NCBI GenBank assembly: GCA_028284385.1
Contig: JANQRT010000022.1
Location: 186,001 to 250,000, forward strand
DNA length: 64,000 bases
Direction: 5' to 3'
DNA from: Opitutaceae bacterium
GTDB taxonomy: Bacteria; Verrucomicrobiota; Verrucomicrobiia; Opitutales; Opitutaceae
Made by a program: the position numbers and the translations under genes. A model generated the notes under the pieces. The model was not told the origin of the DNA and searched no databases. It saw only the letters and a program-made list of their open reading frames with translations. The first letter of the stretch is position 1, and each line of letters opens with the position of its first letter. Shown here one piece after another: positions 1 through 5,325 of this stretch.

Positions 1-340
1 CGAGGTATGCGATAAATCCCCCGATGAAGCCTGTGTCATGGGTGACAACTACAAGCTCGTGATCAATGTTTCGGAGTGTCTTTTGTTTGCCGTAGATCGT
101 GTATTCTTTTTCGTATCGTATTGTCTTTAATTCTTTTGGCGTGACTATCCGGAAGTCAGTTCGGAACGGCTTATCGAAGAGCTCTGCTACTAGCTTGATT
201 TTTTTCGTAGTTCCATTCGGAAGAGTCTGATCTGTTTCAATGTTCCTTAGGACTTCAAGTATCGCATCCTCGTCGATGTCTTTTGCTGTAGCAGATGAAA
301 CCAAGGTGAGGATTAGTAATACTGGAGTTATCCATTTCAT
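1..340 (-). CDS. Secreted protein of unknown function, N-terminal part (likely integron cassette gene)
   Basis: Open frame on the minus strand from an ATG at 340, running off the left edge without a stop. The first 19 residues form a typical signal peptide (MKWITPVLLILTLVSSATA, cleavage likely before KDID), so the product is probably exported. The visible mature part is charged and shows no motif I recognise. The gene starts 22 nt after the stop of the minus-strand gene at 363-830, with an attC-like hairpin spanning that gap. It is clearly more AT-rich than the genes after 1.5 kb. Position, orientation and composition suggest a second gene cassette of the decayed integron (inference). The coding call is good because the frame is open and has a signal peptide; the function is unknown. 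Confidence 0.7.
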   Translation of the reverse strand, partial: MKWITPVLLILTLVSSATAKDIDEDAILEVLRNIETDQTLPNGTTKKIKLVAELFDKPFRTDFRIVTPKELKTIRYEKEYTIYGKQKTLRNIDHELVVVTHDTGFIGGFIAYL

Positions 341-358
341 TTTTGTTGCGAACGCAGA

Positions 359-401
359 GGTCTCACGCGGAGGGGGCGCAGCCCCCGGAGTTGTGAGCAC
401 C
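359..401 (-). repeat. attC-like hairpin between two cassette-like genes
   Basis: Imperfect palindrome: outer arms GGTCTCAC (359-366) and GTGAGCACC (393-401), the latter with one extra base, and an inner stem GGGGGC (372-377) with GCCCCC (381-386). A single extrahelical base in one arm and an unpaired inner spacer are hallmarks of integron attC sites. It contains the stop codon of the upstream gene, as often seen where an attC encodes the cassette protein's last residues. The outer R boxes do not match the canonical RYYYAAC/GTTRRRY consensus well, so the call is tentative. Confidence 0.45.
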
Positions 402-830
402 GACTTGATCTGCAAGTTTTAGTTCAATTTTCGTTAGTTCACTATGCGGAAAAGACCACGACCAATGCTGATCATCGGTTTCTCCGTTTATAAAGTGTGA
501 GTGGTACAAATCCTTCAATGCTTTCGTGATCTTCTGTGAAATAGCCAATCGACTAGAGTGAATCGCTAGAACCATTTCGTTTCGATGATCTTCGATAATC
601 CAACTAGTGATTCCTTCTTCTTCTTGAAATATCCATTTTTCGTATTCAGGTTCTAGTGACCACTCTACGACTTCACGTCGACTGCCACCGAGGAATGCCA
701 GAATGCGATAGGTCAAATGCTGGATTGAGTCACAAGGGGCATCCGAAGCGTGAATCTCATGATTTCCAATGCTGACAGGCAGCCAACCGTGCTCTGGCTT
801 TCCAAACTTCAACTTTGGTATAGGTCTCAT
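363..830 (-). CDS. Hypothetical protein, first cassette-like gene next to the integrase remnant
   Basis: A 155-residue soluble protein with a balanced, natural composition (acidic and aromatic-rich, e.g. GWLPVSIGNHEIHASDAPCD near residue 15). I do not recognise a family; it has no signal peptide, TM segment or obvious catalytic motif. The last ten residues (HNSGGCAPSA) are encoded by the attC-like hairpin, which is characteristic of cassette genes whose reading frame runs into the recombination site. It points away from the integrase remnant at 1105-1467, as expected for the first cassette of an integron. The region is AT-rich compared with the rest of the window. Confidence 0.65.
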   Translation of the reverse strand: MRPIPKLKFGKPEHGWLPVSIGNHEIHASDAPCDSIQHLTYRILAFLGGSRREVVEWSLEPEYEKWIFQEEEGITSWIIEDHRNEMVLAIHSSRLAISQKITKALKDLYHSHFINGETDDQHWSWSFPHSELTKIELKLADQVGAHNSGGCAPSA

Positions 831-847
831 TGTTTCGCAGATCTATA

Positions 848-875
848 AGTATACTTGATTTCTATCAAGTGTACT
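848..875. promoter_or_regulatory. Inverted repeat upstream of the first cassette gene
   Basis: AGTATACTTGAT and ATCAAGTGTACT around a 4-nt loop, 11 of 12 positions paired, ending 18 nt before the ATG of the minus-strand gene at 830. On the minus strand a TTGATA and a TATAGA lie 15 nt apart across it, a possible though short-spaced promoter. It could be an operator or, by position, part of an attI/Pc region; the sequence does not decide. Confidence 0.35.
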
Positions 876-1104
876 AAATTGTTCTTTTATTTCTTAAGTG
901 GTTTGAGAACAAAGAGTTTCGCTTGCTGATCGTCTTAACCATAAATCAGATGTTTCTTGTTAAATTGTCATGCATTTCGGCTTGTCCGGCTGGATGTCAA
1001 TATATGAATCTTTCTCTCAGTTTTATAAATCTCTTTAAGCCAATGGCTTTCCTCTTTCCATCTCCGCCAAGTTTTCGGGCGATTCTTGACATTTCGTCGA
1101 TGGA
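876..1104. other. Intergenic zone between cassettes and integrase remnant (expected attI position)
   Basis: AT-rich stretch with no credible gene. In an integron the attI site and cassette promoter would lie here. A GTTAAAT fitting the R-box consensus GTTRRRY occurs at 959-965, but on the plus strand, the wrong orientation for these cassettes, so I do not call attI. The right end is already similar to the integrase remnant in composition. Confidence 0.4.
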
Positions 1105-1467
1105 AAGGGCCTGAGCGGACGGGAGCGCGAGGCGTTCGAAATCACGCTCTCGTAGTACTTGGGCTATTGCCGCAAGAGAGAATGGGAACCGGTGGGGGAT
1201 CGCAAGACGGGGTGTCACTTCTACAAAGAGGTGGTGGATTCCAGGCGACCAGAGGATTCGCAGAAAAGGCAATGGGCGGCCGCTCTGAGTTGGTTTTTCG
1301 AATTTATAGAGCAAACGGACAAGGCGGGTCAAGAGATGAGAAGGGCGTTGCGGCGACGCCACGTGGCCTATCGCACTGAGGTGTCGTATCTGGCCACAAC
1401 TATGACCTACACCCATGTGCTGAACCATCGAGCTGTTCCCTTAGTTAGTCAGCTCGACGCACTTTAG
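1105..1467 (+). pseudogene. intI: Decayed integron integrase (IntI) with large internal deletion
   Basis: The frame reads LSGREREAFEITLS, then an in-frame TAG at 1153, then YLGYCRKREWEPV, a tryptophan-rich N-terminal extension (QWAAALSWFF) and RRALRRRHVAYRTEVSYL, the SAM-like core-binding start typical of IntI proteins. It then jumps directly to ATTMTYTHVLN, the box II region carrying the nucleophile tyrosine (IntI consensus TTMIYTHVLN). Everything between, roughly 200 residues with the RHR catalytic residues, is missing. So at least one nonsense mutation and one large deletion inactivate it. It is divergent from the two cassette-like genes at 1-830, the standard integron arrangement. What I see is the motif match; family assignment rests on established IntI sequence patterns. 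Confidence 0.8.
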
Positions 1468-1532
1468 AATTGGAGGCTTCGTGGGCCAAAAGAAAATTGA
1501 TTCGCGGCGGCTTCTTGGGTTTTACTGGATAC

Positions 1533-1910
1533 ATGAGCGATAAGCAGAATCCCATTGTGAAGGCGTCGTCGTCGGTGCCGGAAACCGTTGTTCCGGCTGG
1601 AAAGGGGACTAAGTTTCAGGTATTGATCAGCGATCAGGAGGCTCCCCATTTCGCTTTAAGGCGATTCGTCATGGAGCCCGGCGGCGGCATGCCCAACCAC
1701 ACGAACCTGGTGGAGCACGAACAGTATATCCTCAAGGGAGCCGCTCGCGTTGGCATTGGCGATGAAGTTTTCGAAGTGAAGCAGGGAGACGTGGTCTACA
1801 TTCCGCAAGGCTCGCCTCATTGGTACGAAGCGGATGCCGAGCAGGGCTTCGAATTCCTCTGCATTGTGCCGAATCGGGAAGATCGGATCGAGATCGTCGT
1901 CGGCTGCTAG
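1533..1910 (+). CDS. Small cupin-domain protein
   Basis: A 125-residue single-domain cupin. Motif 1 is visible as G-x5-H-x3-EHEQYILKGAARVGIG and motif 2 as GDVVYIPQGSPHWYEA, with the metal-ligand histidines and glutamate in place (H, EHE, H). Such small cupins bind a metal and act as isomerases, dioxygenases or sugar-binding proteins; the substrate cannot be read from the sequence. An upstream in-frame extension to 1470 exists, but the ATG at 1533 precedes the first cupin-like residues and the upstream translation looks non-coding. It is followed at once by a REP pair (1927-1986). It directly follows the integrase remnant, so it may mark the right flank of the integron. Confidence 0.85.
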   Translation: MSDKQNPIVKASSSVPETVVPAGKGTKFQVLISDQEAPHFALRRFVMEPGGGMPNHTNLVEHEQYILKGAARVGIGDEVFEVKQGDVVYIPQGSPHWYEADAEQGFEFLCIVPNREDRIEIVVGC

Positions 1911-1926
1911 TTGAATAACGCTCTTT

Positions 1927-1986
1927 CGGAACTTCTCAGAAGTTCCGCTACAGCTGAATCCGTAGCGGAATCTCTGCAAGATTCCG
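1927..1986. repeat. REP pair (BIME) with GTAG heads
   Basis: Two hairpins in inverted orientation. The first is the perfect palindrome CGGAACTTCT-c-AGAAGTTCCG (1927-1947) followed by CTAC (1948-1951), i.e. a GTAG head on the minus strand. The second is GTAG (1962-1965) followed by CGGAATCT-ctgca-AGATTCCG (1966-1986). A GTAG or GGAG tetranucleotide at the foot of a hairpin is the established recognition feature of REP sequences used by RAYT transposases. Located 16 nt after the cupin stop, so it may also act in termination or mRNA stability. Confidence 0.7.
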
Positions 1987-2110
1987 ACCCAAGTGGGCTG
2001 AGGGGACGTCTATGCGTGGAGGTGAAACCGTTTCGAGCGAAGCGACAAGAGCGGACGCTTAGTGAGCTGGACCTCTTCTGCTACCAGTAGAATTGAAAAA
2101 TCTAAATCAC

Positions 2111-2171
2111 GTTGGGGGAAGCCATCCTGCTCCCGCCTTGGCGGGATCGAGCGACTGAGGGAGCGTTGACC
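2111..2171 (+). repeat. Partial copy of the GxxExxY element right end
   Basis: Reads GTTGGGGGAAGCCATCCTGC, then a hairpin CCCGCC-tt-GGCGGG, then GAGCGTTGACC. The same order of blocks (GTTGGCGAAGCCATCCTGCT, hairpin, AGCGTTGACC) forms the right end of the element at 54163-54708. The hairpin stem differs in sequence but stays paired. No gene remnant or left end is found nearby, so this is a solitary end. Confidence 0.55.
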
Positions 2172-2261
2172 AGAAATTCTCAATTCCGTCTCCCCTTGGA
2201 TTCGACCTAAATACCTCTCCCCATTTGCCGATGTTTTGATGCGGCGACAGCAGTTTAAGCT

Positions 2262-3272
2262 ATGTATCTCGATGCGAAAAGAATAGCGATGGGCATTGCG
2301 GGACTAGCCATTGGAGGAATGGCCTGGTTCATGATGCAGTGGAAGAACGAGACGACGCGAAATCAGATCGAAGCCATCGAAGGGGGAGTGGCCTGGAATG
2401 AAGAGGCCATTGCCGGAGAAATGACTGCTTTCGCGAAGGCCCGAAGCGAGGCATCGGAGCTTTTGCTGCAGGGCGACTACAAAGCCGCTTCGCTCAAGAT
2501 GTATCATGCCTATCCGAAGCTGGAGTCGTATCTAAACGTCCATGGTTATCGCGAGCTCGCGTCAGGCGGAACGGTCAAGGATTGGTTCGAGAAGGAAAAG
2601 GCCGAGATGAACAAAGTTCTGGCCAAGGCTTATCCTGGATTGATTGACGCCGTGTCCACTGGCGATCTCTCCTGGCGAGTCGCTCGCGACTTTTTCAATC
2701 ACTTTCCTTTCGTATTCATAAATGAATACAAGCGAAAATACGCGACCGACAAGGCTGCCATCGCTGAAAGACGACTTTCTCAGGCCAAGGATTGGACCAT
2801 TGTCTATGTTGGCGGATCGATGGGTAGCAGTGGGCCCTATGAAGAGGCGGTCCGCAAAGCTTTGAAGAGCAAGTGGCCAAGCGATTCCCGCCTAAAACTC
2901 GTTTTCGGGGGAACGATGAACAGCAAGGAGAAAAAGGCCGCGGCGTATGTGGCCAGTGTTTATCTTGAAGGCGAGGAAATCGTCTACCAGTTCGAGGACA
3001 AGCATGCCAATCGAGGTAGCGACCGCGCCTTGGAACGCGTCGTGGCGACCCTTGAGATAAAATCGCAGCAAGCTAATGCCAAACGCACGTCGTGGCATGA
3101 CCTCCAGCCAATGAAAGTCCATCATGAGGCTCCGGAGGTGGTCACCTTTCGTTTCGAAAACGATAGGCAGATGGCTGATTTCTCGAGCGTCATTGAAAAA
3201 CAACGGCAGGTCCTGCTCGACAAGTTGAACGCCGAAGTGGTGGAGAAGATTCCCGTTTTCGCCCTGAAGTGA
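2262..3272 (+). CDS. Membrane-anchored protein of unknown function
   Basis: A 336-residue protein with one N-terminal hydrophobic segment (residues 8-27, IAMGIAGLAIGGMAWFMMQW) and no clear cleavage site, so probably a signal anchor with a large extracytoplasmic domain. The rest is charged and mostly helical (EAIAGEMTAFAKARSEASEL; EKEKAEMNKVLAKAYPGLI). I do not recognise a family. The middle region (WTIVYVGGSMGSSGPYEEAV) suggests a compact alpha/beta portion. It is preceded by repeats and followed, after 185 nt, by the lactate permease gene in the same direction; co-transcription is possible but not shown. Codon use and composition match the neighbours. Confidence 0.75.
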   Translation: MYLDAKRIAMGIAGLAIGGMAWFMMQWKNETTRNQIEAIEGGVAWNEEAIAGEMTAFAKARSEASELLLQGDYKAASLKMYHAYPKLESYLNVHGYRELASGGTVKDWFEKEKAEMNKVLAKAYPGLIDAVSTGDLSWRVARDFFNHFPFVFINEYKRKYATDKAAIAERRLSQAKDWTIVYVGGSMGSSGPYEEAVRKALKSKWPSDSRLKLVFGGTMNSKEKKAAAYVASVYLEGEEIVYQFEDKHANRGSDRALERVVATLEIKSQQANAKRTSWHDLQPMKVHHEAPEVVTFRFENDRQMADFSSVIEKQRQVLLDKLNAEVVEKIPVFALK

Positions 3273-3457
3273 TTTGGCAAGCGGCGTTTCTTGACCAGGC
3301 TCTAAGGGTATAGCGGCAACATCCATGGATTTTCCATGCCCGACCCCTTGAGAGGAGTCGGGGTTGGAAAAACAACGCTTGCTAAGAATCTCCGCCCCTT
3401 GTCTTCTGGGATGTCGCCGTCCTTTGGAGACGGTGCCCGACAACCACTCCCCCTTTC

Positions 3458-5242
3458 ATGTCCGATCTACCCCTCGCCGTCCTCTCTCTCATCGCCTTGG
3501 CTCCGATAGCGGTGGTGATGTTCTTCCTTGTTATTCTGCGCTGGCCGGCTAAGAAAGCCATGCCTCTGGCCTATGTGGTGACAGCGGCGCTCGCCTTCCT
3601 CGTTTGGAAAACGCCCGGCCTGCAAATCGCCGCGGCTTCCATTCATGGCGTCGTAACGGCCCTCAATATCCTTTTCATCGTTTTCGGAGCTATCCTGCTT
3701 TTGAATACGCTTAAGGCCTGCGGCGATATTTCGGCTATCCGCCAAGGTTTCGTGGACATCTCTCCAGATCGTCGCGTGCAGGCGATTATCATCGCCTGGC
3801 TGTTCGGCTGCTTTATCGAGGGGGCCGCGGGTTTCGGGGCTCCTGCCGCGATCGCCGCTCCCTTGCTTGTGGCGATCGGCTTTCCAGCCATGGCGTCCGT
3901 TGTCGTTGCTTTGATAATACAAAGCACTCCAGTCTCTTTCGGGGCGGTGGGGACGCCTATTCTGCTGGGAGTGAATACCGGCTTGTCTGGCCAGCCGCAA
4001 GTCATTGCCGTGGTCGAGAGCTTGGGTCTTAATCACGAGCAGTACCTTCACCTTATCGGCGCTACGGTCGCCCTGATCCATGCTATCGTGGGATCGTTCG
4101 TCCCGCTTGTAATGGTGAGCATCATGACGCGGTTCTTCGGGAAGAACAAATCGTTTCGCGAAGGGTTGGAGATCTGGAAATTCGCTCTCTTCGCCGGTCT
4201 GTCCTTTACCATTCCCTACGCGCTAGTGGCTCATTTGCTGGGTCCAGAATTTCCTTCGCTGATTGGCGGACTGGTCGGTCTGTTCATCGTCGTTACGGCT
4301 ACTAAGGCAGGCTGGATGCAGCCCAAAAAGGTTTGGCAGTTTCCCGACGAAAAGGATTGGGAGGAAGAATGGAGCGGCGAGCTCCATGTGGATACCCATG
4401 ATCACGGAAAGGTTTCGCGAGGGGCGTTTCTCAAGGCTTGGTCGCCCTATGTGATCGTAGCTGCTCTCCTGGTCCTCACTCGAACGGTGGATTCCATAAA
4501 GGGTCTGGTGCGAGCCGATGCCGTGACGATCAAGTGGACTAATATTCTGGATACGGGCATCAGCACTTCTTCGCAGCCGCTGTATTTGCCGGGCTTTATC
4601 TTTCTAGTGGCCATCGGCCTGTCCTACCTCATCTTCAAAATGAATGCGGAGATGATCAAGACTTCCTGGAAGGAGTCGATCCATACCATCTTAGGCGCGG
4701 CGAGCGCCCTCCTGTTCGCGGTGCCGATGGTGCAGGTCTTCATCAATTCCCAATCCGATGCTCTTGGCAAAATGCCGATCGTCCTCGCAGATGGCGTCTC
4801 GGTGGTATTCGGTTCGCTGTGGCCGCTGGTCGCGCCGACGATTGGGGCTTTGGGGGCCTTCATTGCCGGTAGCAACACCATTTCCAATATGATGTTCTCG
4901 CTTTTCCAGTTTGGCATGGCGGGAAAAATTGGAGCAACCGAGCACGTCGTGGTGGCCTTGCAAGCGGTGGGTGGAGCGGCTGGAAACATGATTTGCGTTC
5001 ACAATGTCGTCGCCGCTTCGGCTACGGTCGGTCTATTGGGAAAAGAGGGAAGCGTCATTAGGAAAACACTACTGCCGATGGCTTGGTACGCCCTGTTTGC
5101 CGGATCGATCGGTTTGGTTCTGCTACATGGTATCGGACTGAACCTCGGAACGTTTCTGGTAATCGGTTTTGCCTGTCTAATGCTTTGGTTGATTACGCAA
5201 GGCATCCAGGCGGAAAAGACGGCGAGTTCGAGTGGTCAGTAA
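3458..5242 (+). CDS. lldP: L-lactate permease (LctP family)
   Basis: A 594-residue polytopic inner-membrane transporter with about 13 hydrophobic segments. It carries the family signatures: the N-terminal hydrophobic stretch, [19 protein letters not shown], the conserved [19 protein letters not shown] region, and [11 protein letters not shown]. The C-terminal third includes [19 protein letters not shown], typical of LctP proteins that import L-lactate, D-lactate or glycolate with protons. The length fits the family (about 550-600). No lactate dehydrogenase gene is adjacent, so whether lactate or glycolate is the substrate stays open. It converges with glpD (stop 5326). Confidence 0.92.
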
Positions 5243-5325
5243 GCCATTTGCGGAAAATCAACAGATCGTGATGGCGGTCGTTGATCGACGCTTATTCCAC
5301 TTGTGTTGACTTGTAGAACGATCCT

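Follow-up and report, generated by a model that had tools for sequence, protein, structure and literature searches.

Sedentary chromosomal integrons have already been described from Verrucomicrobiota (PMC8618304). The locus studied here resembles them in the divergent arrangement of integrase gene (intI) and cassette array, the attI site between the two, attC sites of about 70 bp and small, mostly unknown cassette genes, but its intI is a pseudogene with an intact paralogue on a different contig, and the core of its first cassette is GAT/ATC. In the integrons of Xanthomonas, stop codons and large deletions have inactivated intI, and the cassette array has outlived it (PMC12444791). Our locus likewise lost its intI through a stop codon and a large deletion and retained its array; unlike in Xanthomonas, a second, intact integrase is encoded in the same genome and could act in trans. 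Clusters of attC sites lacking an integron integrase are termed CALINs (PMC9024848, PMC8618304). With more than the required two attC sites and no functional intI next to them the locus falls under this term, but unlike a CALIN it keeps a recognisable intI fossil and an attI site, and these are direct evidence that CALINs can arise as proposed, by loss of intI. The locus shows the passage from integrase loss to CALIN under way, with a working relative still present in the genome. With respect to the crossover point, the conserved bases of attC have been described as limited to AAC and GTT (PMC2727003), and the AAC triplet has been called universal to attI sites (PMC4792948). Secondary sites of IntI1 use GWT or GNT triplets (PMC4618277, PMC10127599), where the second base is reported to be only loosely constrained and cleavage to occur at G^AT (PMC10127599). 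A GAT triplet is also taken as the crossover point in our first cassette, but whereas the IntI1 secondary sites are recipient or off-target sites, this GAT belongs to the cassette's own attC core and is matched by ATC in the R'' box.

The window, i.e. the whole stretch of 64,000 nucleotides that was analysed, corresponds to C11:186001-250000 in a 72-contig, 5.39-Mb draft genome. Judged from its sequence, the region at window positions 1-1467 is very probably the end, next to attI, of a sedentary chromosomal integron with an integrase gene that is now a pseudogene (Table 1). This reading is supported by the intI fossil, the homologous attI, the co-oriented attC array and a paralogous integron that is still intact on another contig of the genome, C68. 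The locus is classed as the remains of an integron because its intI copy fails the cut-off of TIGR02249. A sequence-only reading had proposed a decayed integrase divergent from two AT-rich genes, with an attC-like hairpin encoding the C-terminus of the first gene and further cassettes beyond the left edge. This layout held throughout: two minus-strand genes were found at 363-830 and 2-340, the GC content is 0.445 in window 1-842 versus 0.543 in 1470-5300, and the attC site at 347-413 holds the end of the first open reading frame with its stop at 363. The two checks that had been named beforehand were run as well; the plus-strand remnant at 1110-1467 matches IntI, and seven more attC sites lie upstream of the window. 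A search against Rfam gave no match anywhere in the window. No empty orthologous site that would date the insertion was found in the same-genus genome G001, where the upstream genes are conserved and the downstream context differs.

Table 1. Features of the integron remnant in the window and the intact integrase gene on contig C68 (window positions unless a locus is given).
Feature	Position	Strand	Details
Cassette 2, partial in window	1..352	-	extends left to C11:185824
attC of cassette 1	347..413	-	R'' GCAGATC 407-413, R' GTTCGCA 347-353; covariance models R1, R2
Cassette 1, 490 bp	353..842	-	gene 363-830, 155 aa, ends within its own attC
Start box of cassette 1, G^ATCTGC	837..843	-	perfect complement of own R'' GCAGATC
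attI and intI upstream region	843..1109	+	216/268 columns identical to C68 counterpart
intI pseudogene, N-terminal part	1110..1394	+	260/285 nt identical to C68 intI
In-frame TAG stop in intI pseudogene	1153..1155	+	
IntI C-terminal tail (TTMTYTHVLN...LDAL, stop)	1395..1467	+	joined after loss of ~268 codons
C68 intI	L015:8737-9939		400 aa; TIGR02249, 387 bits (cut-off 265)

The intI copy of the window carries three kinds of lesion. A start-codon deletion has removed 48 bp at 1109/1110, an in-frame TAG interrupts the remaining N-terminal part, and a deletion of about 268 codons lets the reading frame jump from residue 109 to residue 378 (C68 numbering), so that the translation across the junction reads ...RRALRRRHVAYRTEVSYLA|TTMTYTHVLN... 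and most catalytic residues are gone. With the start codon lost, a TAG inside and residues 109 and 378 joined, the gene product cannot be a recombinase. A BLAST comparison of window 1-2200 with the C68 integron showed a single long match, which aligned window 843-1394 with attI and the intI 5' end of C68 (79% identity over ~600 columns, E 2e-159). The short tail gave a weak match of 16 bits to positions 291-315 of TIGR02249 (cut-off 265). Its divergence is much greater than that of the N-terminal part, with 43 of 74 aligned columns identical to C68 intI as compared to 260 of 285 positions. For this reason it is plausible that two different intI genes were joined, the deletion having fused a C68-like N-terminal part to the C-terminal end of a more diverged intI. 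We consider such a chimera and a single decayed gene about equally probable. The uneven identity to one and the same C68 gene and the lasting resemblance of the tail to an IntI C-terminus speak for two sources; on the other side, uneven divergence within one pseudogene could give the same pattern, no donor gene was identified, and at about 70 nt the tail is too short to be placed.

The integrase gene on C68, by comparison, is intact. With the Xer models its product does not reach the cut-offs, and the nearest relative in the PDB is IntI4 (2a3v, E 4e-73). It contains the motifs GLRISE and HALRHSFATH as well as the GH and Y motifs, which in tyrosine recombinases bear the catalytic residues; they are located from positions 214, 347 and 370 onwards. 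Related integrases were found in Verrucomicrobiota, Opitutia included, and in some other phyla. The protein has about 88 extra residues ahead of the usual IntI start, and this extension is matched wholly or in part by many related integrases of Verrucomicrobiota and other phyla. The roles of attI, attC and the C68 integrase, including recombination catalysed by IntI, are putative. Distally, the C68 array contains a VapB antitoxin gene paired with a PIN-domain gene (L015:3872-4422); pairs of this kind are usual integron cargo.

At both loci the homology of the attI regions begins exactly where the first cassette starts (window 843). The window thus holds an attI that adjoins intI and has the first cassette inserted in it, as expected of an integron. 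Beside the attI crossover we noticed a palindrome, AGTATACTTGAT..ATCAAGTGTACT, at window 848-875 with a 12-bp stem, which is partly conserved in C68 and is possibly a site for the integrase or a regulator. A sigma-70 promoter was sought in attI and not found. Cassettes would have been captured at this attI by IntI working on the folded bottom strand of attC, and would be read in the direction away from intI.

The attC sites were identified with two covariance models, since a scan by regular expression and folding proved too noisy and was replaced. Model R1 was built from 13 sites (five from C68 and eight from other genomes; 43 double-change cells in its alignment versus 18 in shuffles), and R2 from 21 sites that all came from other genomes. 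The attC of cassette 1 was the sole R1 match in the 64-kb window (25.5 bits, E 0.00037) and scored 24.9 bits with R2, which was trained on other genomes only. Its plain folding energy is unremarkable (z -1.4), and the call therefore rests on attC architecture and not on stability. Unfiltered scoring of C11:180001-190000 revealed eight attC sites, all on the minus strand, within about 4 kb (C11:182334-186413). Such a site is an imperfect palindrome that can fold and has R''/R' and L''/L' boxes; the eight lie in the same orientation and delimit cassettes of 455-803 bp. The best of the eight is that of cassette 2 (R2, 40.3 bits, E 2.5e-7 in 191 kb), and the weakest two, at 12.1 and 11.2 bits, are not significant alone. 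Neither the gene of cassette 1 (363-830) nor that of cassette 2 had a match in Pfam; the latter starts with ATG at 340, and its product begins with MKWITPVLLILTLVSSATA, which looks like a signal peptide. The cassette genes on C11 are mostly without known family, and two encode GNAT acetyltransferases. Just past the eighth attC site we observed genes for an alpha/beta hydrolase and a DUF5069 protein (L012:846-2331), which may be older cassettes. Farther on, the short segment C11:181353-181418 matches an attC site on contig C27, which suggests that the array continues there.

When a cassette is circular, its outer stem is made up of its first bases and the R'' box of the attC that belongs to it. 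Consistent with a mobile circle, the start box of cassette 1 complements its own R'' at 7 of 7 positions, and it does so although three positions in each box are off consensus; among random 7-mers of the region such a complement arises by chance in about 7e-5 of draws. The core is GAT/ATC and not the GTT/AAC that marks the usual crossover triplet. In the first seven cassettes of C68 the R'' box matches its own start at 7, 7, 7, 7, 6, 7 and 7 of 7 positions, while the same boxes match the next start at 6, 6, 5, 4, 5, 5 and 1. On C11, cassette 1 reaches 7/7 and cassette 2 reaches 6/7, and the complementarity is mostly lost in deeper cassettes, which fits young cassettes beside attI and old, eroding ones farther off. 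The first attC is a non-canonical GAT/ATC site and not a decayed one, and it is the deeper C11 sites that are more degenerate.

We then surveyed the cores of model-defined attC sites in the arrays of 14 genomes that belong to the window's family and of the Opitutia contig L029. Among 258 distinct sites the R'' triplet was AAC in 233 and ATC in 21, and any other triplet occurred at most once. Start and own R'' were coupled as GTT/AAC in 186 cases and as GAT/ATC in 12 (all 7/7), and crossed combinations at 6/7 or better were absent; shuffled pairings of starts and R'' boxes reached 7/7 in 9%. Sites with ATC were found in G001, G005, G019, G020, G072, L029 (with boxes such as GATCGGC and GCCGATC) and the window's own genome; this minority class recurs in other genera. 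If anything ATC sites are under-counted, because the training set of the attC model contained only AAC/GTT sites. We discarded a hairpin scan that looked permissively for ATC cores; it gave equally many hits for control triplets (ATC 180/1024; ACC 156/882; AGC 214/1123), and the GAT/ATC claim therefore rests on the model-defined sites. It is likely that Opitutia integrons contain a second natural class of cassettes, with a GAT triplet and an ATC inverse core, that uses the same integrases and attI, that the rule for attC is G^WT plus pairing, and that standard attC models under-count such sites. IntI would then accept G^WT as long as the R'' and R' boxes pair. Such cassettes are informative on what IntI actually recognises at the crossover, and their naturally compensated boxes offer a ready test of pairing versus sequence. 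In the open-access literature we found no report of natural attC cassettes with a GAT core, also when degenerate-core spellings (GATRRRY, GWTRRRY) were included. The integron remnant itself is of a known kind, and the compensated GAT/ATC class is the part for which we found no precedent.

The sequence-only reading had also stated that the array would be frozen with its integrase dead. This went too far, since the intact paralogous integrase on C68 could act in trans on the C11 attC sites, and a frozen array is only one option. In its strict form, with nothing acting in trans, the attC sites eroding relics and the boxes of cassette 1 mere mutations, we regard a frozen array as rather unlikely. 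It would agree with the R1 scores of the C11 sites, which reach at most 29.9 bits as compared to 50-57 for C68 (where five are training sites) and up to 44.5 for a cluster on C21 (not used in training), and with the complementarity that is gone in the deep cassettes. Against it stand the intact IntI in the genome, the perfect self-complementarity of cassette 1 over 7 bases despite three off-consensus positions per box, the recurrence of the GAT/ATC class in other genera and the statement that a functional IntI is able to mobilise CALINs in trans (PMC12444791). After the death of its own integrase, the array could change only through the C68 integrase in trans, and such mobilisation is testable here because the genome retains this working relative. 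That the locus is no integron at all and combines a fragment of an unrelated tyrosine recombinase with chance hairpins is extremely improbable, for although the remnant by itself reached only 19.6 bits with PF13495 (below the Pfam cut-off of 27) and the hairpin is not exceptional in folding energy, this reading is contradicted by the ordered array of attC sites on C11 and by the homology to the complete integron that the genome carries on C68.

Further attC-like sites occur elsewhere in the genome, in clusters of 3-7 on contigs C21 (L073), C34 (L074), C27 (L075), C38 (L076), C13 (L077 and L078) and C69 (L079). No integrase remnant was found at these seven clusters, and they are probably CALINs, some of whose single sites are weak. 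A DNA-level search for cassette genes shared between the C11, C68 and CALIN arrays gave the attI/intI part as the sole long match; the remaining matches were short and mostly at attC sites. Within the family, attC hits at E <= 0.001 were obtained in 27 of 61 sampled genomes, and G019 alone had at least 59 attC hits over several contigs (L124-L128, L088). In another genome five attC sites repeat with equal scores 4,903 bp apart (L134, G020:C1:1427000-1436000), apparently a tandem duplication of part of the array.
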